Source: a virus | Length of the DNA stretch: 46,578 bases | Virus record (IMG/VR): IMGVR_UViG_3300035698_031051 | Span: 1-46,578 of that record | Direction: 5' to 3' (one strand) | Shown here: positions 1 to 43,934 of the stretch, piece after piece | How positions within the stretch are numbered: position 1 is the stretch's first letter | Layout of the letters: each line of letters begins with the position of its first letter | Translations under genes and position numbers: made by a program | Notes under the pieces: model-generated | Databases searched by the model: none | What the model saw: the letters and a program-made list of their open reading frames with translations, nothing else | Told to the model about the DNA's origin: nothing

Positions 1-81
1 CGGTTCACCCCCGCACGCGCGGGGCACACTCCCATTTCCTGCTTAACCGCCACGGTTCACCCCTGCATTGGCAGGTACAAC
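1..81 (-). CRISPR. Leader-proximal end of a type I-E-like CRISPR array (two repeats, window-truncated)
   Basis: Two 29-nt repeat units occupy 1-29 and 53-81, read on the minus strand, downstream of cas6e. Both end in the same GGGGTGAACCG. Both fold into a hairpin, but with different stem bases: CCCCGC/GCGGGG in unit 1-29 and CCTGC/GCAGG with loop CAAT in unit 53-81, so the stem is preserved by paired changes. The 3' part resembles the E. coli type I-E repeat, which ends ATAAACCG. The sequence between the units is only 23 nt, against the usual 32-33 nt for type I-E. The 81-115 gap to cas6e is too short for cas1 or cas2. The array continues past base 1 and cannot be counted here. Confidence 0.75.
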
Positions 82-114: not shown

Positions 115-702
115 TTAAAACCGTAAAGACAACAAGCCACACCCAAAAGCCTTCTCGTCACCCAGACCCCTCGTCACTGTTTGTACAAGGTTCTCAGGAT
201 CAAGGACAGATAGTCTTCCTTCTAGTGTGAAGGTTGGGAATTTGATCTGATAGTCTCTTTTTATTATTTCAACATCCCTACGTTCTTTCAGACCAATATC
301 CAATAGATTTGCTGATGTCTCTATTTTGCGTGCAAAACGATCAAATATATCATCTCGTTGCGTTCTATAGCACTCGCGTCCATAGAATGTTTTCCTGAAA
401 CAGCCCCGCAGCCTAAAGCCCAGATTCAGATCCACTGTGAATTTTGGCTGCCAGCGTTTTACCCGCGTCTCAAAGTCGCGTAGCCGGTTTCCCACACACT
501 TTCCACCCCAAAGAGGTGCCCCAGAACTTTGCACCAGAACAGAAATCAGCTCACCATGTGGCGGCTCTATACGGAATAGGGTCCTCCCTTTTTCGGCTTT
601 AGTCAGGCCATCAAAACCTGCTTCTATAACCTGGTGTAGTCTATAAATATTTTGCAGCAGGGGGTGATCTTTAGGACCTGTTAGATTTGATAGATATAAC
701 AT
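115..702 (-). CDS. cas6e: Cas6e (CasE), type I-E crRNA-processing endoribonuclease
   Basis: Cas6e cuts the CRISPR transcript at the base of each repeat hairpin and stays bound in Cascade. The 195-aa length fits the family (about 200 aa). Near the N terminus the motif IYRLHQ places Tyr20 and His23 three residues apart, as are the catalytic Tyr23 and His26 of the E. coli enzyme. The C terminus GDEKAFGCGLLSLRF is the family's glycine-rich signature. The start ATG follows GGAGGTTTAATT, a Shine-Dalgarno inside the end of cas5e, so the two are translationally linked. It is the last cas gene before the array. An active-looking Cas6e matters for the repeat-like hairpin at 2587-2615. Confidence 0.95.
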   Translation of the reverse strand: MLYLSNLTGPKDHPLLQNIYRLHQVIEAGFDGLTKAEKGRTLFRIEPPHGELISVLVQSSGAPLWGGKCVGNRLRDFETRVKRWQPKFTVDLNLGFRLRGCFRKTFYGRECYRTQRDDIFDRFARKIETSANLLDIGLKERRDVEIIKRDYQIKFPTFTLEGRLSVLDPENLVQTVTRGLGDEKAFGCGLLSLRF

Positions 703-704
703 AA

Positions 705-1346
705 TTAAACCTCCAGTTTATAGTATTGATTTGTGACCCATCTTGGAATAAAAAGCCGCTTTTCAAAAGAGATGGGTACGTCTTGACGTTCTGTGCCCTG
801 TCCTGGGGCAGTTTCCATTATGAATCTGTACTGAGCATCTTCCTCTGCTTCCGTTAAAGGTGGGTGCTGTAGTAGGGCTTGAAGTACCGGCTTTTCAACT
901 ACCTCTATTGCTATCTTGCGTGAATTTACGCAGCAATAGCGGCCAAGTGTTAAGGTTCTATGAGGATGCTCAACAGCTGCAAAGAGCCTGTCTATTAGGG
1001 CAGTATTATCAGATTCTAAGCCTACTAGAAAGACAGCATCACAAAGGTAGTCTCTATAGGAAAGTGTGCATACTTGTTTAGTTGATCTAGATCCATCTGC
1101 TTTGTAGACGTTTCTTGTAGTATGGTAATCGGTGAGGGTAGTCCCCTCCTGGTCCACCCGAACTCCCATTTTCAGCCCTGTGAAAAGGGACTGGTCAACA
1201 TTGCTTTTCTGTCCCAGAGCCAAGGCAAGCATACCGATCACCCCACTCCTGGTAGGCTCGGAGTCAGTTTCTCGGTGGGAAAAACTACTTCGTGACCCCC
1301 AGGACTGGAGAGGTCCTGCAAAACATAGTAATAAAGTGCTGGCCAT
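705..1346 (-). CDS. cas5e: Cas5e (CasD), type I-E Cascade subunit
   Basis: Cas5e caps the 5' handle of the crRNA in Cascade. The 213-aa protein starts with the diagnostic LLLCFAGPLQSWGSRSSF and continues ...PTRSGVIGMLALALG, the N-terminal pattern of the family, and has about the usual length (about 225 aa). A strong AGGAGG lies in the last codons of cas7e, 11 nt before the ATG. The stop of cas5e is 2 nt before the cas6e ATG. It looks complete and intact. Confidence 0.95.
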   Translation of the reverse strand: MASTLLLCFAGPLQSWGSRSSFSHRETDSEPTRSGVIGMLALALGQKSNVDQSLFTGLKMGVRVDQEGTTLTDYHTTRNVYKADGSRSTKQVCTLSYRDYLCDAVFLVGLESDNTALIDRLFAAVEHPHRTLTLGRYCCVNSRKIAIEVVEKPVLQALLQHPPLTEAEEDAQYRFIMETAPGQGTERQDVPISFEKRLFIPRWVTNQYYKLEV

Positions 1347-1352
1347 AATATC

Positions 1353-2564
1353 CTAAACCTCCTGCTTGACAGCAGCTAGTATGTCAGAAATCAGGGTTTC
1401 TAGGGAGATGGTGCTGGGATCATAAATGTTTATTTCTCGCTCCATTACTATGCCTTCTTCACCATAGACACGATTCTGGCTCCCACGAAACTCTTTCAAA
1501 GCGTTTATGGATTTTAATACGATGTTCTCAGGGTTTTTCGGATCCACTGTTATAGGCTTTACGAAAGCTTCTGAAAAATCAACTGGTTTGTCTGATATTT
1601 CTCGCAATATAACAGATACATATGCCGGTCGGGTATATGCTGCAAAAACAGTTTGTTTTGTCTGCAGCTGGATGGAGGAAATAACCCTTATAAAAGCATC
1701 TAACACCATGCTGATAGCATTGAGGTCTTCCTTAAAATTACGGCGTTCGTACATGTTATGGGACAGTGCTGGTATGTCCACAAAGCCATTCATGTAGTAG
1801 CAGCTTGCGTTATATGATTGATTAGCTAGCATTGAAGCACCCCCTTTGGGGTCAAATTCGTCAATAGCTGCAAAGTAATCCTGCTCAGGCTGAACTTCAT
1901 GTGTGCTTAGTGCATTAGCCATACAAAAAGCACGTTCAATGTTATTCTCAGGGGCAGAAGCAATAAACCTGCCAAACATGGCGATTTCAAAGGCAGCGGC
2001 AGGATCCAATATGACACCCAGTTGCTTGGCAAGGTCTTTTTTGTTATCGCCAAGTACACTTTTATATATAGCCGATAGGTGTGCTTTCACCTCTGATTTC
2101 TTCAGGGGCTTCTTAAGTGGTTTTTTGAGTTTAGCGTCTAGGGCAGACGCCATTTCTGAGAAAAGTGGCCACAGCTCTATGATCTTTGCAGCTCCGAGCT
2201 GAAGGGACTCCCGGGCCAGTGACATCTGTGTTTCCGTTCTGCCGGTTTCCGGGTTCAGCCCCACATCAATTGCAGTTAGAGCCAGAGGCACAATCAGTGC
2301 CACTAGATCTGGTTCGCAGCCAAGATCTATCAGGGTTTTAGACAGTATCTCCGGTGCACACCTGGTAGAAATACTTGTGATCTTGGAGGGCAGCAGCAGT
2401 CGCATCATCTTTCTCATGGCAGCCTTCAGACACTGCGAGCTTATACGGCCCCGCAAATACCGCCCCAAATAAGCTGTTTTGGCCTGCTTTAGCTCGTCTG
2501 CATTTAGACAGGCGGGGCCGAAGTTTTGGATGATGTGTACATCAATTCTTAGATTTCGTTCCAT
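1353..2564 (-). CDS. cas7e: Cas7e (CasC/Cse4), Cascade backbone subunit
   Basis: Cas7e polymerises along the crRNA to form the Cascade backbone. I place the start at the ATG giving MERNLRIDVHIIQNFGPACL, behind AAGGAGTGCGTT. The open frame continues upstream to 2645 but would there translate a CRISPR-like repeat, so the longer form is rejected. The N-terminal DVHIIQNFGPACLNAD and the following RGRISSQCLKAAMRK are family hallmarks; later DFDPKGGASMLANQSYNASCYY also fits. Length is 403 aa against about 363 in E. coli. A short tandem repeat KKPLKKPLKKS (about 2095-2130) lengthens a lysine-rich loop. The gene opens a cas7-cas5-cas6 block that may be processed from the operon mRNA. Confidence 0.93.
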   Translation of the reverse strand: MERNLRIDVHIIQNFGPACLNADELKQAKTAYLGRYLRGRISSQCLKAAMRKMMRLLLPSKITSISTRCAPEILSKTLIDLGCEPDLVALIVPLALTAIDVGLNPETGRTETQMSLARESLQLGAAKIIELWPLFSEMASALDAKLKKPLKKPLKKSEVKAHLSAIYKSVLGDNKKDLAKQLGVILDPAAAFEIAMFGRFIASAPENNIERAFCMANALSTHEVQPEQDYFAAIDEFDPKGGASMLANQSYNASCYYMNGFVDIPALSHNMYERRNFKEDLNAISMVLDAFIRVISSIQLQTKQTVFAAYTRPAYVSVILREISDKPVDFSEAFVKPITVDPKNPENIVLKSINALKEFRGSQNRVYGEEGIVMEREINIYDPSTISLETLISDILAAVKQEV

Positions 2565-2586
2565 AACGCACTCCTTTTTTGGTTTA

Positions 2587-2615
2587 CGGCTCGCCCCCGC
2601 ACCTACGGGGGAAAG
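2587..2615 (-). repeat. Solitary CRISPR-repeat-like hairpin between cas8e and cas7e
   Basis: In the 56-bp gap between the cas8e stop (2621) and the cas7e ATG (2564) lies a 29-nt element matching the array repeat unit. Read on the minus strand it ends in GCGGGGGCGAGCCG (array: GCGGGGGTGAACCG), and its stem CCCCCG/CGGGGG is perfect with loop TAGGTG. It is in the same orientation as the operon, so it is transcribed in the cas mRNA and could be cut by Cas6e. Such a cut would leave a downstream mRNA with a crRNA-like 5' handle directly before the cas7e Shine-Dalgarno. No second repeat is visible nearby. Confidence 0.8.
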
Positions 2616-2620
2616 TTCTA

Positions 2621-4711
2621 TCAGCAGTAAAGGCTGATCGCCCATTCCCGCATGACTATTCTATTTTCGTCCCATCGAATTAAATCCCAAAGCAGTTGCC
2701 TAAAATCAATACTGACCCCATGAGCTTCCGCCAAGGACAAACCTCCCAGCAGCTCGGGCTGCAGATTCTCAAAAGTTGTGTCGCTGAGCCTGGCAAACCG
2801 ATACAAAATGTTGTTTGATCCTGTTTTTTCAGCTAGGGCCTTATAAGTAGAGCCCATGTTCCCCTTATGGGGGCTCTCAGGAAACCGTCCAAAAAGACTG
2901 GCAGCTAGGTAGCAGGCAGCGTGTGCCTCAGGCGGAAAGCTCCCTAGTAGGGGCTGGATGAGCGAATCCAAAAGTCTATTGGATCCCATAGAAACCAACA
3001 GCCCAGATCGTAAAGCTACCATTTTTTCTATGCTGTCGTAGCTCTGACTCATCTTTTCCAAGGCCTTGATGAAGTCAATAGTCACATTATTTGGGGTGGA
3101 TTTTTTCAGTCTTCCCGGGTAGGCTGCCCCCGAAGCAGCCCAAACTTTTGAAAGTCCGGATTCAAACATGACACGACAAATTACTGAAGTTTTTATATTT
3201 TCTGCGGTTGCGTCTCCTATAATTTGCTCGTCAACTAGGGCGTAGGCGTCCTCAGCCGCCACCGTGCAAATTGTCAGCCAGCCCCGCACAGTAGGTGCGA
3301 TTTGAGACTGCGTTAATTCCGGCAAAAGAGTAAGCAGGTGCCAAAATTCAGGGGCGATCCTAGACCAGTATGAGTGTCTCTGGCTCCGGCCATTGATTTT
3401 TGTAAGGGCTTTTTCCATAGCACCTTCTATTTTAGAGGCCAGTGTCATACACTGACGCAAGGCCTCCTCAGCAAATTCATTGCTGAGGAGGCCTACGGGT
3501 ACCGGAAACTCATCACGAACCCATGAGATTATTTTATTTTTGCCTGCTGTGGCCACAATCCCAGAAACAGAACAGCGCTCCGGAAGTCTTCCATATTGTT
3601 TTTTCCACACCTTTGTGAGCTGGCTGAATATGCTTGGTCTGCCATCAAACTGAGAATTATAGGCATAAGTCACATCATCATCCGCCCGGATGAGGAGGGC
3701 GTGGCTGTCCCGCCACCGATCACGGCTCGGATTTATCGGGTAGGCACATATAGTGGGTACCTTGATTTTGGTTTTTCGATCCGGTCTCAGCCAAACTGCG
3801 TATGCAGTATAAGGGTTTCTTATGAAACCGTGATCAGCAAAAAGCGGCCCTTGGGCCTTATAAACTCCTGTGATTTCACCGGCTTCCGTATATGTTAGAC
3901 GCATAGCCTTATGCTGCCAGGTCAGCCAATCTAAATAGCCTCGGATCTGTTTTTCGGGGTGCTCTTCTGAGTACCAGTGAGTTTCCTGTTCCCAAGCGGG
4001 GGCGTCCCCTTGTGGGCTTTCTGCCACGGGCCATTGGTCTTTGCACATCAAATTCAAGACCAAGGTTTCATAAAGGTTGCTACCCAGAATCAAAACAAAA
4101 AGACTTCTTGCGGAGGGAGAATCAGTATTATAACTCGCCTTGACCCCTGTTTGCGTCATGGGCCCCTTGCCACCACAAAGACCATATGAGTGCTGTGCCA
4201 GCAGCCCCATGATGGCCTCTGCCCCACCTATAGTCTCACCAGAGTCATCCACTTTATGGCTGAAAAGCGTTGGGTTTGGTCCCGAAGCCTGCTCAAGAAA
4301 AAGATGGTTTGGGCTGCTGGGAGCCTTCTTTTGGACCACTTTTTCTTTTCCCACTTTTCCCACTTTTTCCAGAACGTGAAAACCCGCTGTCTGATAGAAG
4401 GGGTGCTCTGAGTCTAACAGCTCGAAACGATCATACCATTTTTTCAGGTATGTACTCACAGAAGCCATCTCAAAGCCGCCTGCTAGCCACAGCTCCCGCC
4501 AATGAGCCTGATCCCGGGGGCCCTCTGTAATGCAATGAGACACTGCTATCAGGAGCTTGTGTATACAGACCGTAGCAACAGGGTTGCGACCACAAACGCA
4601 GTAGATTTCAGGAGCCCTCTCAAAAACACCCTGTAGACTAAGCACCTCATAGACACCATCTTTGCGAACAACAGGGATCCAAGGATCGGACACTAGATTA
4701 AAACTTGCCAT
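2621..4711 (-). CDS. cas8e: Cas8e-Cas11 fusion (Cse1-Cse2), Cascade large plus small subunit
   Basis: Cas8e recognises the PAM and recruits Cas3; Cas11 (Cse2) forms the belly of Cascade. The 696-aa product is about 190 aa longer than E. coli Cse1 (502 aa). Residues 1 to about 525 are Cas8e-like: it opens FNLVSDPWIPVVRKDGVYEV and has LSLQGVF and TEAGEITGVYKAQGPLFA. Residues about 542-696 (about 155 aa, the length of Cse2) carry Cse2 features in order: VALRSGLL, GNMGSTYKAL, LYRFARLSD, and the diagnostic C-terminal VSIDFRQLLWDLIRWD followed by REWAISLYC. A lysine/serine-rich linker (about 526-541) joins them. No separate cas11 exists in the operon. Frame is continuous. The ATG lies 7 nt after cas3 ends. 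Confidence 0.9.
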   Translation of the reverse strand: MASFNLVSDPWIPVVRKDGVYEVLSLQGVFERAPEIYCVCGRNPVATVCIHKLLIAVSHCITEGPRDQAHWRELWLAGGFEMASVSTYLKKWYDRFELLDSEHPFYQTAGFHVLEKVGKVGKEKVVQKKAPSSPNHLFLEQASGPNPTLFSHKVDDSGETIGGAEAIMGLLAQHSYGLCGGKGPMTQTGVKASYNTDSPSARSLFVLILGSNLYETLVLNLMCKDQWPVAESPQGDAPAWEQETHWYSEEHPEKQIRGYLDWLTWQHKAMRLTYTEAGEITGVYKAQGPLFADHGFIRNPYTAYAVWLRPDRKTKIKVPTICAYPINPSRDRWRDSHALLIRADDDVTYAYNSQFDGRPSIFSQLTKVWKKQYGRLPERCSVSGIVATAGKNKIISWVRDEFPVPVGLLSNEFAEEALRQCMTLASKIEGAMEKALTKINGRSQRHSYWSRIAPEFWHLLTLLPELTQSQIAPTVRGWLTICTVAAEDAYALVDEQIIGDATAENIKTSVICRVMFESGLSKVWAASGAAYPGRLKKSTPNNVTIDFIKALEKMSQSYDSIEKMVALRSGLLVSMGSNRLLDSLIQPLLGSFPPEAHAACYLAASLFGRFPESPHKGNMGSTYKALAEKTGSNNILYRFARLSDTTFENLQPELLGGLSLAEAHGVSIDFRQLLWDLIRWDENRIVMREWAISLYC

Positions 4712-4717
4712 TTTTTT

Positions 4718-7354
4718 TCAATTTCCTTTTTTGGGCCAAAACAGCCCGAGTTCTGGGTCCAGATCTACTACTCCATTTCGGAGGGTACTGTACTGGCCCT
4801 CTGTGAGAGGCAGCAACTTATGTCTTTTCAGGTGCGAGTTTTTCAGCCAGCAATCTGGGGTCTCAAGTGAAGCCTCGAATTCCGTTACGAACCGGGGACT
4901 TCCGACTTTTATCGTAGCTTGCCTAAGCGAAAGCACCTCTTCAGGTGACGGGGGGTAGGGGCCTATGTGTGTCTTTATCGTCAAAAAGCCTTGCTTGTCC
5001 GGCAGCAAAAAACACCCACCACCCAAATCTTCAGCACACACTACAGAAACCGAAGGCAGTGCGTCCCTCGTGCAAACTTGCAAAATATTTTGACCTTCAG
5101 GGTCATCGGCAACTGACCACTGAGGTGGATCTAGTGGATCTAGTGGATCTAGAAGGGTTGCATTATGCGCTTTTTGTCTTTTTTCATAAACTTTGAATTC
5201 TTGTTCCTCAAGGAATAAGTGGTGCCATGCCCTTGCATTAGCGTCGAAGGGCAGTTCTCTCATGTCATACACGGCTTCGATAAGCTCAGGCATATCATTG
5301 GGAATCTCGATTTTTTTCAGGCTTGCCAGTATGCAGGCGGATCTCAATAAAAGCACCGCCGGATAAATAAGCTGGCTGTCTCCGAAGGGTGAATTTTCAT
5401 AGCCCAGCGGATAAACCAGCTGAATTTCTGCCCCCTCCCACCCGTGCCTGTCAGTGCCCGGATGCCTCCAAGATCGTCCTAACCGCTGGAGGAAAAGATC
5501 TATGGGGCAAAGCTCTATAATGGCAAAGTCAAAGTCGATATCTAGCGACTGCTCTATAACCTGTGTCGCTATGAGTATGGACGCCTCTGGCCTGCACTTA
5601 CTGCGTGGTCCATATTTTTGAAGCAGCCGCTTTTCAGTCAGGTGCCTCTGCCCCCCTGGGAACCGGGCGTGGAAGAGGTTTATTTCTATCTTGCTGTTTT
5701 CAAGCTGTAAAGCCTTTAATGCTTTATAAATCTCTTGACCACCACCCACGGTATTGCAGAACCATACAACATTGCCTCTTTTAACCTCAACTTCAGCTAA
5801 TAGCTCAGTACAAGTCTCCAATACGTCTTCCGGTGTTTTATGCAGCTTGACGGGCCTAAGATGGTATTCTTTAGGCAGCTCAACCCTTGGAACCTCTACG
5901 GTTTTAACAGTTTTAGTATCTAAATATCCTAGTGTTATGCCAGGATATACAGTAGGTGCTTTAACAGAGGCTCCCAAATAAGCAGACATAAGCTCAGAAC
6001 GCTTAGCCATAGGTAAGGTTGCTGTTAACATGATAACTTTGCAGCCTAACTCTGCCAGCCACCTTAAAAGACAGCATAGTATAGAATTCATGTACACATC
6101 ACATGCGTGAACCTCATCAAAAATCACCAGTTTGCCTGCCAGTCCGTAATGCCGCACTGAAAAGTGTCTTGAGCAAAGCCCCGCTAAAAGTACTTGATCT
6201 ATTGTGCCTACGCCCACAGGAGCGAGCAGTTTTCGCTTTGGGCCGGTCATCCACTCACTGGCTTCTGCCATGGAAGTGGGATCGCCACTTGCGGTTTCTG
6301 CTCTTAATTTTTTATAAATCTCTTCCAGATCAGCAGAGCTATGCAATAAGTGTGCTTGTGCTGGGCCCCTAGCACTAGAGTTTACGAAGTTCAAGCTCCT
6401 ACAATACATAGAAGTTGAAGTGGCCATAGTAGGCAGTGCTATGTAGAAACCTTCAATAAGGCCTGCCAGCATGTAGTGCAGGGTGACATAAAAAGCCAGC
6501 TCTGTCTTGCCGGAGCCCATTTGTGACTCTGCCAGAATTATATCAGCAGGGGGTCCCGTTTCTAGTATGTCGATCATCGTGTTTTGGAGCGGGTTGGGCT
6601 CAAACCCAAAGATCGTTTTGAATGATTTTTTCATGAATTTCAGGGGCTGCAGCAGTCCTGTCTTGCTGACCACTCGCCGTGCGGTCTCTCGGGACTCTAG
6701 AGCATAAACTTGAGGGGGGATGTTTTCAGCCCCCCTCAAGGGGAAAAACTCGCTATTGGAGGCGACCCAGTCGCAAATAGAAATCAGCCCTGAAAGAGTA
6801 GTCACACACACTGCTGAGGGCACTTCTTTCAATTTTGCAAGATCTGAAAATTTGCCCCCAAAGACCTTCTCAAGGGTTTGGGCATAGTCAGTCCTGAGAG
6901 GATCCCAGTCTCGATGAGCTGTGAGTTTTGATATTTTTGTATGGTAAGAGCCGTGGTGCGAGCTGGTGGTTCTCGCCAGAGCCTTTGCCACATCTTCGCC
7001 GCACCCAAGCATCTCCAACATTTCCGCAAGAAACGCTTGACTAACGTTGGAGTGGTCGGATTCTGCATTGGGATCCCACGAAAAGTTTTTTAGCAGTTGG
7101 GGGTGCACCAACTCAGGGATCTTCCTGGCAAAACCAGGAGATATTTTTCCAATATCATGTGCGGCTGCAAGTAGGACTATTAATTTTGGAGTTAGGCCCC
7201 AGGAGGCCCATAGGGCCAGCAACTGCTTGCCGTGTTCCGACAGATAGGCCAGCATCTCCAGCATGACACTACCCGCATCAATTCCGTGGTGTATGGCTGG
7301 GTGCCATTTGCTGCCTTCTTTTTTTCCCCAGACCAGTTCATATGTTCTTTTCAT
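4718..7354 (-). CDS. cas3: Cas3, HD nuclease-helicase of type I CRISPR
   Basis: Cas3 unwinds and degrades DNA marked by Cascade. The 878-aa protein has an N-terminal HD domain (HPAIHHGIDAG, AAAHDIGKISPGF, TSSHHGSYH) and then a superfamily 2 helicase: Walker A SQMGSGKTE, DEVH box IFDEVHACD, motif III MLTATLP, motif VI QRLGRSWRH. Length matches E. coli Cas3 (888 aa). All catalytic motifs look intact, so the system is probably functional. A 9-bp unit repeated three times near 5130-5157 encodes DPLDPLDPP in the C-terminal region. GGAGG precedes the ATG, and the leader ORF stop overlaps it (TAATG). It is the first cas gene behind the phage-type promoter at 7461-7495. Confidence 0.95.
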   Translation of the reverse strand: MKRTYELVWGKKEGSKWHPAIHHGIDAGSVMLEMLAYLSEHGKQLLALWASWGLTPKLIVLLAAAHDIGKISPGFARKIPELVHPQLLKNFSWDPNAESDHSNVSQAFLAEMLEMLGCGEDVAKALARTTSSHHGSYHTKISKLTAHRDWDPLRTDYAQTLEKVFGGKFSDLAKLKEVPSAVCVTTLSGLISICDWVASNSEFFPLRGAENIPPQVYALESRETARRVVSKTGLLQPLKFMKKSFKTIFGFEPNPLQNTMIDILETGPPADIILAESQMGSGKTELAFYVTLHYMLAGLIEGFYIALPTMATSTSMYCRSLNFVNSSARGPAQAHLLHSSADLEEIYKKLRAETASGDPTSMAEASEWMTGPKRKLLAPVGVGTIDQVLLAGLCSRHFSVRHYGLAGKLVIFDEVHACDVYMNSILCCLLRWLAELGCKVIMLTATLPMAKRSELMSAYLGASVKAPTVYPGITLGYLDTKTVKTVEVPRVELPKEYHLRPVKLHKTPEDVLETCTELLAEVEVKRGNVVWFCNTVGGGQEIYKALKALQLENSKIEINLFHARFPGGQRHLTEKRLLQKYGPRSKCRPEASILIATQVIEQSLDIDFDFAIIELCPIDLFLQRLGRSWRHPGTDRHGWEGAEIQLVYPLGYENSPFGDSQLIYPAVLLLRSACILASLKKIEIPNDMPELIEAVYDMRELPFDANARAWHHLFLEEQEFKVYEKRQKAHNATLLDPLDPLDPPQWSVADDPEGQNILQVCTRDALPSVSVVCAEDLGGGCFLLPDKQGFLTIKTHIGPYPPSPEEVLSLRQATIKVGSPRFVTEFEASLETPDCWLKNSHLKRHKLLPLTEGQYSTLRNGVVDLDPELGLFWPKKGN

Positions 7355-7460: not shown

Positions 7461-7495
7461 GACAGACACTACTCTGAAATGCAGACCGATGATCC
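7461..7495 (-). promoter_or_regulatory. Phage-type promoter driving the cas operon
   Basis: On the minus strand GGATCATCG (from 7495) is followed 20 nt later by AGAGTAGTGT (from 7475), the same spacing as at eleven other copies of the motif. AGGAGG follows at 7458-7453. This places the CRISPR operon under the phage's own transcription signal. The element overlaps the last codons of the 52-aa ORF, whose stop is the TAG of AGAGTAG. Confidence 0.75.
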
Positions 7496-7644: not shown

Positions 7645-7880
7645 TTATGCGTACAAGTACACTACTCTAAAAGGCAAGAAGAATCTACTGAAATGGACTT
7701 TTTTTTTAAAAATTAAATTATCAGGATCCCACGTCCCTATTCTGAGCGCGGCTGCTTTGTCTTTCCTATAGGTTTCCGGCTGGCTGATAAAATCTTGAAT
7801 ATCGGCTAGACATCCTTGACTGATGATTTGGGCCGTTGCTTCAGCATATTAAAGTGGATAAATTTATATTTAGTTTTCAC
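7645..7880 (-). pseudogene. Frameshifted small gene (two overlapping frames)
   Basis: A GTG at 7880 behind AAAGAGGTTGCT starts MKTKYKFIHFNMLKQRP and stops at 7806. A second frame from 7848 to 7645 reads YAEATAQIISQGCLADIQDF then ISQPETYRKDKAAALRIGTW, which looks like real protein but lacks a start codon. Joining the first ten residues of the upstream frame to the second by one base near 7850 gives a sensible protein of about 78 aa. I infer a single-base indel, from decay or assembly error. The family is not recognised. It would be the last gene of the ligA operon. Confidence 0.45.
7655..7690 (-). promoter_or_regulatory. Phage-type promoter core before the 52-aa ORF
   Basis: Minus-strand TTTTAGAGTAGTGTACTTGTAC (ends near 7651) matches the core found at other promoters, including the ACTTGTA tail. 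The upstream GGATCA element is not present at the expected distance, so this may be weak. Confidence 0.5.
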
Positions 7881-11076: not shown

Positions 11077-11112
11077 TTGGATCATTGAAAAGCAGTTTAG
11101 AGTAGTGTGCCA
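11077..11112 (+). promoter_or_regulatory. Phage-type promoter for the 91-aa ORF
   Basis: GGATCATTGAAAAGCAG at 11079 and TTTAGAGTAGTGTG ending at 11109. Thirty-one consecutive bases are identical to the copy at 11406-11442, so one probably arose by duplication. Confidence 0.75.
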
Positions 11113-43896: not shown

Positions 43897-43934
43897 TAAA
43901 ACACACTACTCTAAAACCGTCATCAATGATCCTT
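43897..43934 (-). promoter_or_regulatory. Phage-type promoter for the calcium-binding lipoprotein
   Basis: Minus-strand AAGGATCATTGATGACGG then TTTTAGAGTAGTGTGTTTTAG; consensus. Confidence 0.72.

Follow-up and report, generated by a model that had tools for sequence, protein, structure and literature searches.

A solitary, degenerate type I-E CRISPR repeat upstream of cas7e in a phage cas operon: a possible recognition site for Cas6e

A lone hairpin with the sequence character of a type I-E CRISPR repeat lies directly before cas7e in a phage-borne cas operon, in sense orientation to the genes, and the Cas6e encoded downstream retains its active-site histidine. The interpretation that we tentatively prefer, whilst rating it somewhat short of even, is that Cas6e recognises this element as a hairpin within the cas7e 5′ UTR, and that the hairpin acts post-transcriptionally, being bound and perhaps slowly cut. 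Two other explanations, a decaying relic of a former array and a plain mRNA hairpin, stand close behind.

The phage record and its cas operon

The DNA analysed herein, referred to as the window, is a linear IMG/VR entry of 46,578 bases (IMGVR_UViG_3300035698_031051). It encodes many nucleic-acid enzymes, including an NAD-dependent DNA ligase, an RNA ligase, RtcB, and thymidine and thymidylate kinases, and this richness is consistent with the record being a piece of a large phage. A type I-E operon occupies the first 7.4 kb on the minus strand, running from cas3 through cas8e-cas11, cas7e, cas5e and cas6e to an array. No cas1 was found in the window; in huge phages, CRISPR systems almost always lack the genes for spacer acquisition (PMC7162821). 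The features of the locus are as follows.

7466–7479, minus strand: promoter-like phage motif TTTCAGAGTAGTGT, upstream of cas3 (recurrent intergenic motif; putative promoter)
4718–7354, minus strand: cas3 (HD + helicase), 878 aa (Pfam Cas3_HD and Cas3-like_C_2; NCBIfam cas3_core)
2621–4711, minus strand: cas8e-cas11 fusion, 696 aa, stop codon 2623–2621 (Pfam CRISPR_Cse1, residues 5–478, and CRISPR_Cse2, residues 567–692, in a single ORF)
2571–2576, minus strand: Shine–Dalgarno sequence AAGGAG of cas7e (read from sequence)
1353–2564, minus strand: cas7e, 403 aa (Pfam Cas_CT1975, 6e-60; N-terminus aligns with homologues)
705–1346, minus strand: cas5e, 213 aa (NCBIfam casD_Cas5e)
115–702, minus strand: cas6e, 195 aa, catalytic His23 kept (Pfam CRISPR_assoc, NCBIfam casE_Cse3, alignment with 2y8w/3qrp and A3)
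53–81, minus strand: first array repeat, degenerate hairpin, perfect handle, GTTGTACCTGCCAATGCAGGGGTGAACCG (read from sequence and repeat matrix)
30–52, minus strand: spacer 1, only 23 nt (read from sequence)
1–29, minus strand: array repeat 2, GTGTGCCCCGCGCGTGCGGGGGTGAACCG; the record stops here, inside the array (read from sequence)

The initial annotation placed cas8e before the gap of interest; the position stands, and the identity is corrected to a fusion of cas8e and cas11 (Cse1 + Cse2). With regard to a separate Cas11, no convincing internal start with a Shine–Dalgarno sequence was seen inside the 696-aa ORF. The gap between this gene and cas7e measures 56 bp (2620–2565), and the remaining gaps in the operon are 6, 6 and 2 bp. 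The frame of cas7e is open upstream through the hairpin to an ATG at 2645; a Cas7e lengthened at its N-terminus across the hairpin was rejected, since homologues and a strong Shine–Dalgarno sequence place the true start at 2564 (ATG 2564–2562).

The array starts 33 bp past cas6e. Its first unit (81–30) holds a 23-nt spacer where about 32 nt is usual, and for this spacer the window yielded no seed better than chance, and IMG/VR no exact match. The recurrent intergenic motif TTTAGAGTAGTGT occurs at 7671–7659 and 7479–7466 (minus strand, that at 7479 being a variant), at 11096, 11425, 18259 and 27472 (plus strand), and at 43915, 14544 and 11051 (minus strand). It is probably a phage-specific promoter, with two copies upstream of cas3; no copy was found anywhere from cas3 through to the array. 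Given the 33-bp spacing and the lack of a promoter-like motif near the array, the cas genes, stray repeat and array probably form a single transcript, judging from this anatomy. On such a shared transcript, crRNA production would probably require Cas6e to cut the cas mRNA at the array anyway.

The stray element is a relative of the array repeat

The element itself comprises the following features.

2587–2615, minus strand: stray I-E-type repeat hairpin CTTTCCCCCGTAGGTGCGGGGGCGAGCCG, stem C5–U11/G16–G22, loop AGGU (21/29 to array repeat; 18.7 bits; fold)
2587–2594, minus strand: degenerate 8-nt handle GCGAGCCG, the array counterpart being GTGAACCG (3.2 bits vs 13.1 for the array)
2594–2595, minus strand: predicted Cas6e scissile bond, repeat positions 21/22 (placed from the known I-E cleavage position)

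Beginning 5 nt past the cas8e-cas11 stop, the stray copy has the 29-nt length, 6-bp CCCC-type stem and 4-nt loop of an array repeat. Alignment to its own array repeat reveals identity at 21 of 29 positions, a level of match for which 0.01 occurrences are expected on both strands of the window. Within the stem, 11 of 12 bases are retained and the sole change keeps pairing (U–G). A weight matrix was built from the arrays of 71 other I-E loci, with the window left out, and on this independent matrix the element scores 18.7 bits; the best scores of 200 Markov-shuffled windows have a mean of 1.2 and a maximum of 16.4. The sense-oriented I-E repeat that the initial annotation had reported in the gap before cas7e is thereby confirmed as a real relative of the repeat, far above chance on these sequence scores.

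How much of this likeness extends past the stem bears upon the possibility that the element is an ordinary intercistronic hairpin, which would shield the 3′ end of the cas8e-cas11 mRNA or insulate cas7e translation with no involvement of Cas6e, its resemblance to a repeat residing mostly in a GC-rich stem. In keeping with this, the stem provides 18.5 of the 18.7 bits, the 5′ flank and loop fall below zero, and the handle contributes +3.2. Against it, 10 of the 17 non-stem bases match the phage's own array repeat (p 0.003–0.013), though homology beyond the stem is only moderately supported. Furthermore, GC-rich 6-bp/4-nt hairpin matches number five in the 46.6 kb and, the array aside, the stray repeat alone has a repeat-like context. 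We regard a plain hairpin as unlikely, and yet as a serious competitor.

The predicted fold of the stray hairpin is more stable than that of the array repeat (−15.4 vs −13.2 kcal/mol) and leaves the cas7e Shine–Dalgarno sequence largely unpaired. An intrinsic terminator was rejected, as the hairpin is followed by TAAACCAAAAAAGG, with no T run, and is absent from the terminator scan. Rfam assigned the hairpin to no family at E-values up to 5, returning one weak unrelated match, and blast analysis of the 41-nt element produced chance-level matches only. The stray and array repeats share no exact run longer than about 9 nt, which makes a de Bruijn assembly mis-join here unlikely.

Recognition and cutting by Cas6e

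Under the preferred reading, the solitary degenerate repeat folds stably as a hairpin within the cas7e 5′ UTR, on a transcript that it would share with cas3, cas8e-cas11, cas5e, cas6e and the array. The phage's own Cas6e could bind this hairpin as a cis-acting recognition site and perhaps cut it slowly. Either event would then set how much is made from the cas7-cas5-cas6-array segment, or how stable it is, in relation to the cas3-cas8/11 segment, and the level of Cas6e would thereby feed back on its own operon. The shared transcript, the binding of Cas6e, the cutting and the effect on expression are all things that we infer from sequence. The bolder claim that the polycistronic cas mRNA is cut, or else clamped, at the lone repeat by the very Cas6e it encodes, uncoupling Cas7, Cas5, Cas6 and crRNA from Cas3, Cas8 and Cas11, we hold to be doubtful.

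Supporting context comes from the position of the stray repeat, which occupies the sole long gap of an operon otherwise gapped by 2–6 bp. The catalytic histidine of Cas6e is conserved, with H23 aligning to H26 of the Thermus thermophilus enzyme and being invariant in A3 (alignment with 2y8w/3qrp). In addition, the stray copy and the first array repeat show a reciprocal pattern: the stray copy has kept the hairpin and lost the handle, and the first array repeat has kept the handle whilst its hairpin is weakened. Conservation of the hairpin rather than the handle is the pattern expected of Cas6e recognition, and not of a guide RNA; likewise, the reciprocal retention is as expected of a stray copy that works for Cas6e and an array copy that works for a crRNA.

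The stem nevertheless has a feature that argues against efficient cutting. A Cas6e substrate would be expected to have a weak 5–22 pair or none, whereas the stray repeat has a C5–G22 pair adjoining the predicted scissile bond, an arrangement that a set of 1,856 array repeats contains just once. This pair could act as a block on cutting, and, taken together with the more stable fold, makes slow cutting, or binding without cutting, just as likely as efficient cutting.

The initial annotation had proposed that Cas6e cuts the cas mRNA at this site, and the proposal survives in part. The sense orientation, the conserved H23 and the probable one-transcript anatomy speak for it, and what has been weakened are efficient cutting, a role for the handle and conservation. 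It was further suggested that Cascade might stay on the 3′ product through a handle resembling that of a crRNA; however, GCGAGCCG departs from the conserved TGAACCG-like form, having lost the U at position 23 that is found in 97% of repeats, which tells against this. After cutting, Cas6e would remain on the 5′ (upstream) product, and so its lingering on the cas7e leader beside the ribosome site, also envisaged in that annotation, is a weak idea.

Three observations count against the preferred reading: the C5–G22 pair, the lack of conservation, and the occurrence of similar hairpins in four phage contigs in which Cas6e and Cas7e were not detected. The latter two are set out below.

Comparison with other I-E loci

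The region before cas7e was compared across 80 genome loci, 7 viral contigs and 7 annotated records, and the cas11-cas7e distance could be measured in 87 operons. Of the roughly 86 I-E operons other than the one studied here, all of them without close kinship to it, 0 have a lone repeat at this position, and conservation of the hairpin is thus not seen in this set. A search of IMG/VR based on an alignment of the window's Cas7e with seven others found only seven I-E loci, and these similarly have no lone repeat in the cas11-cas7e gap. Searches with Cas7e, Cas5e, DNA ligase or the repeat found no close relatives of the phage, although near-identical records may be missed by them and metagenome contigs fell outside their reach. 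The stray repeat before cas7e is thus a singleton, a single sequence with no close relative found. Its absence from the surveyed operons is not an outright refutation, given that close relatives are missing among them.

Small sense arrays do occur within other cas operons, namely at cas11-cas7e in two loci of Bifidobacterium type (L010:6603-8219 and L016:7948-8222) and at cas3-cas8e in a 225-kb viral contig (L018:6516-6915). In all three, crRNAs could mature only if the cas mRNA were cut, and Cas6e-cut cas mRNAs are therefore plausible elsewhere. Lone degenerate repeats were also detected, at cas3-cas8e or upstream of cas3 in L008, L039, L055, L081, L085, L088, L098, L015 and L046; at other positions they are rare (L026, L020). 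The example from Calidithermus roseus (L026:11513-11541) is a repeat copy at the cas6e-cas1e junction, with the cas1e frame open through the repeat.

The embedded arrays of L010 and L016 lend weight to a second alternative, in which a small array or mini-array once lay between cas11 and cas7e and the stray copy is what is left of it, decaying and functionless. Its eight changes in 29 positions, conserved handle positions among them, are in keeping with such decay. The intact stem pairing is not, however, and nor is the tight packing of the rest of the operon. Moreover, a second repeat would be expected at about 60 nt, and no other match of at least 10 bits lies 50–75 nt from the stray repeat, nor is there a spacer remnant within 75 nt. 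A relic seems improbable, to the same degree as a plain hairpin, and like it remains a serious competitor.

Repeat-like hairpins in other phages and genomes

A pattern of repeat, Shine–Dalgarno sequence and ATG was found in 41 IMG/VR contigs, and in none of them was a solitary repeat shown to precede a cas gene. Four large phage contigs found with this pattern (147–236 kb) possess a lone repeat-like hairpin followed by the same GAGCCG as at the stray repeat and a AAAAAGGAGTG leader before a gene of 72–73 aa. In these (L105:5691-5751, L116:3396-3456, L129:45-105 and L139:2150-2210), the hairpin sits 22 nt before the GGAG of the small gene (MKKAC...), and neither Cas6e nor Cas7e was detected in the four contigs. 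Such phage-leader hairpins can therefore exist without an I-E system of their own, which favours the plain-hairpin explanation of the stray repeat. The hairpin in these contigs is possibly a solitary repeat unit against host systems, or possibly a plain conserved leader hairpin.

Near-perfect I-E repeats occur in a further three viral contigs, L115 and L131 (GCGTTCCCCGCACACGCGGGGATGAACCG) and L128 (GTGTTCCCCACGCCCGTGGGGATGAACCG), where they precede long ORFs and lie some 20 nt from the GGAG. No cas homologues were found in the fetched stretch of these contigs, and their repeats are candidate solitary repeat units. Amongst about 1,200 bacterial genomes from three phyla, the pattern returned array members plus a few isolated matches, around which the sequence retrieved held no cas homologue.

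A guide RNA is not supported

Standalone-repeat mini-arrays (CreR/CreA) in cas loci have been reviewed (PMC12737573), and standalone repeats with a guide role are described there in type I cas loci. By analogy, and as the initial annotation had allowed, the stray repeat might give a crRNA-like RNA with a pseudo-spacer (TAAACCAAAAAAGGAGTGCG...) that directs Cascade to the cas promoter. Each lone repeat was assigned the 32 nt after it as its guide; the best seed match made by this guide to the cas region close by was then set against those of shuffled guides, the PAM not being used in choosing. Seeds of 9–12 nt (p 0.001–0.008) were obtained at 6 of 17 lone-repeat sites, all six with the PAM AAN. 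The clearest CreR-like guides in these I-E loci lie near cas3/cas8e (L008:6518-6578, L088:6274-6334, L098:2956-3016 and L015:2347-2407, the last on a viral contig), and weaker candidates with poor handles are L020:10350 and L055:6147.

The same test that detects these positive controls gives the stray repeat a seed of only 4 nt, both in the cas promoter region (p 0.999) and in the gap (p 0.951), and across the whole window its best seed merely equals those of shuffled guides. With p values of 0.95–1.0, a guide to the phage's own cas promoter is unsupported within the window and was rejected there; the degraded handle and missing second repeat also stand against it, and we consider it very unlikely. 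Least likely of all is an RNA anti-CRISPR (Racr) or solitary repeat unit titrating the Cas6e/Cas7 of a host I-E system: viral solitary repeats inhibiting I-E systems are known, but are described as having no cas association (PMC10651486), whereas this one lies inside the phage's own cas operon.

Significance and comparison with known systems

Cascade contains six Cas7 per Cas8, and how its unequal subunit numbers are set, in cells as well as in phages, has been little studied. Known autoregulation by stray repeats operates via guide RNAs acting at promoters. If recognition of the leader hairpin by Cas6e holds true, then a repeat that lies in an mRNA leader and has no guide match would extend this to control of the message itself without a guide, bringing guide-free, post-transcriptional autoregulation of Cascade composition to a phage and a natural counterpart to engineered Cas6-split operons. 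This leader-hairpin mechanism is testable with one enzyme and one RNA.

Related work on CreR and CreA, as standalone-repeat mini-arrays in cas loci, is reportedly that of Shmakov et al. 2023 (gkad495). The stray repeat resembles these elements in being a degenerate repeat that lies outside the array, within the cas locus and in sense orientation. It differs from them in location, theirs being before cas8 or cas3 and this one before cas7e; theirs also have a spacer with partial complementarity to the promoter of a cas or toxin gene, whereas none was found for the stray repeat. With Racr and viral solitary repeat units it shares the presence of a single repeat in a viral genome, in principle able to bind Cas6, and is set apart by its residence within the virus's own cas operon (PMC10651486). 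The operon-embedded I-E arrays of L010, L016 and L018 similarly place sense repeats in a cas operon, at cas11-cas7e in the first two; these are true multi-repeat arrays with a period of about 61 nt, whilst the stray repeat is alone. Lastly, in engineered operons, sites for Csy4 (a Cas6-type enzyme) placed between genes split the mRNA. Such operons are artificial, and cutting of the stray repeat is only predicted; in this natural, degenerate example, a Cas6-type hairpin likewise lies between cistrons of what is probably one mRNA, where the same effect on relative expression would be expected.
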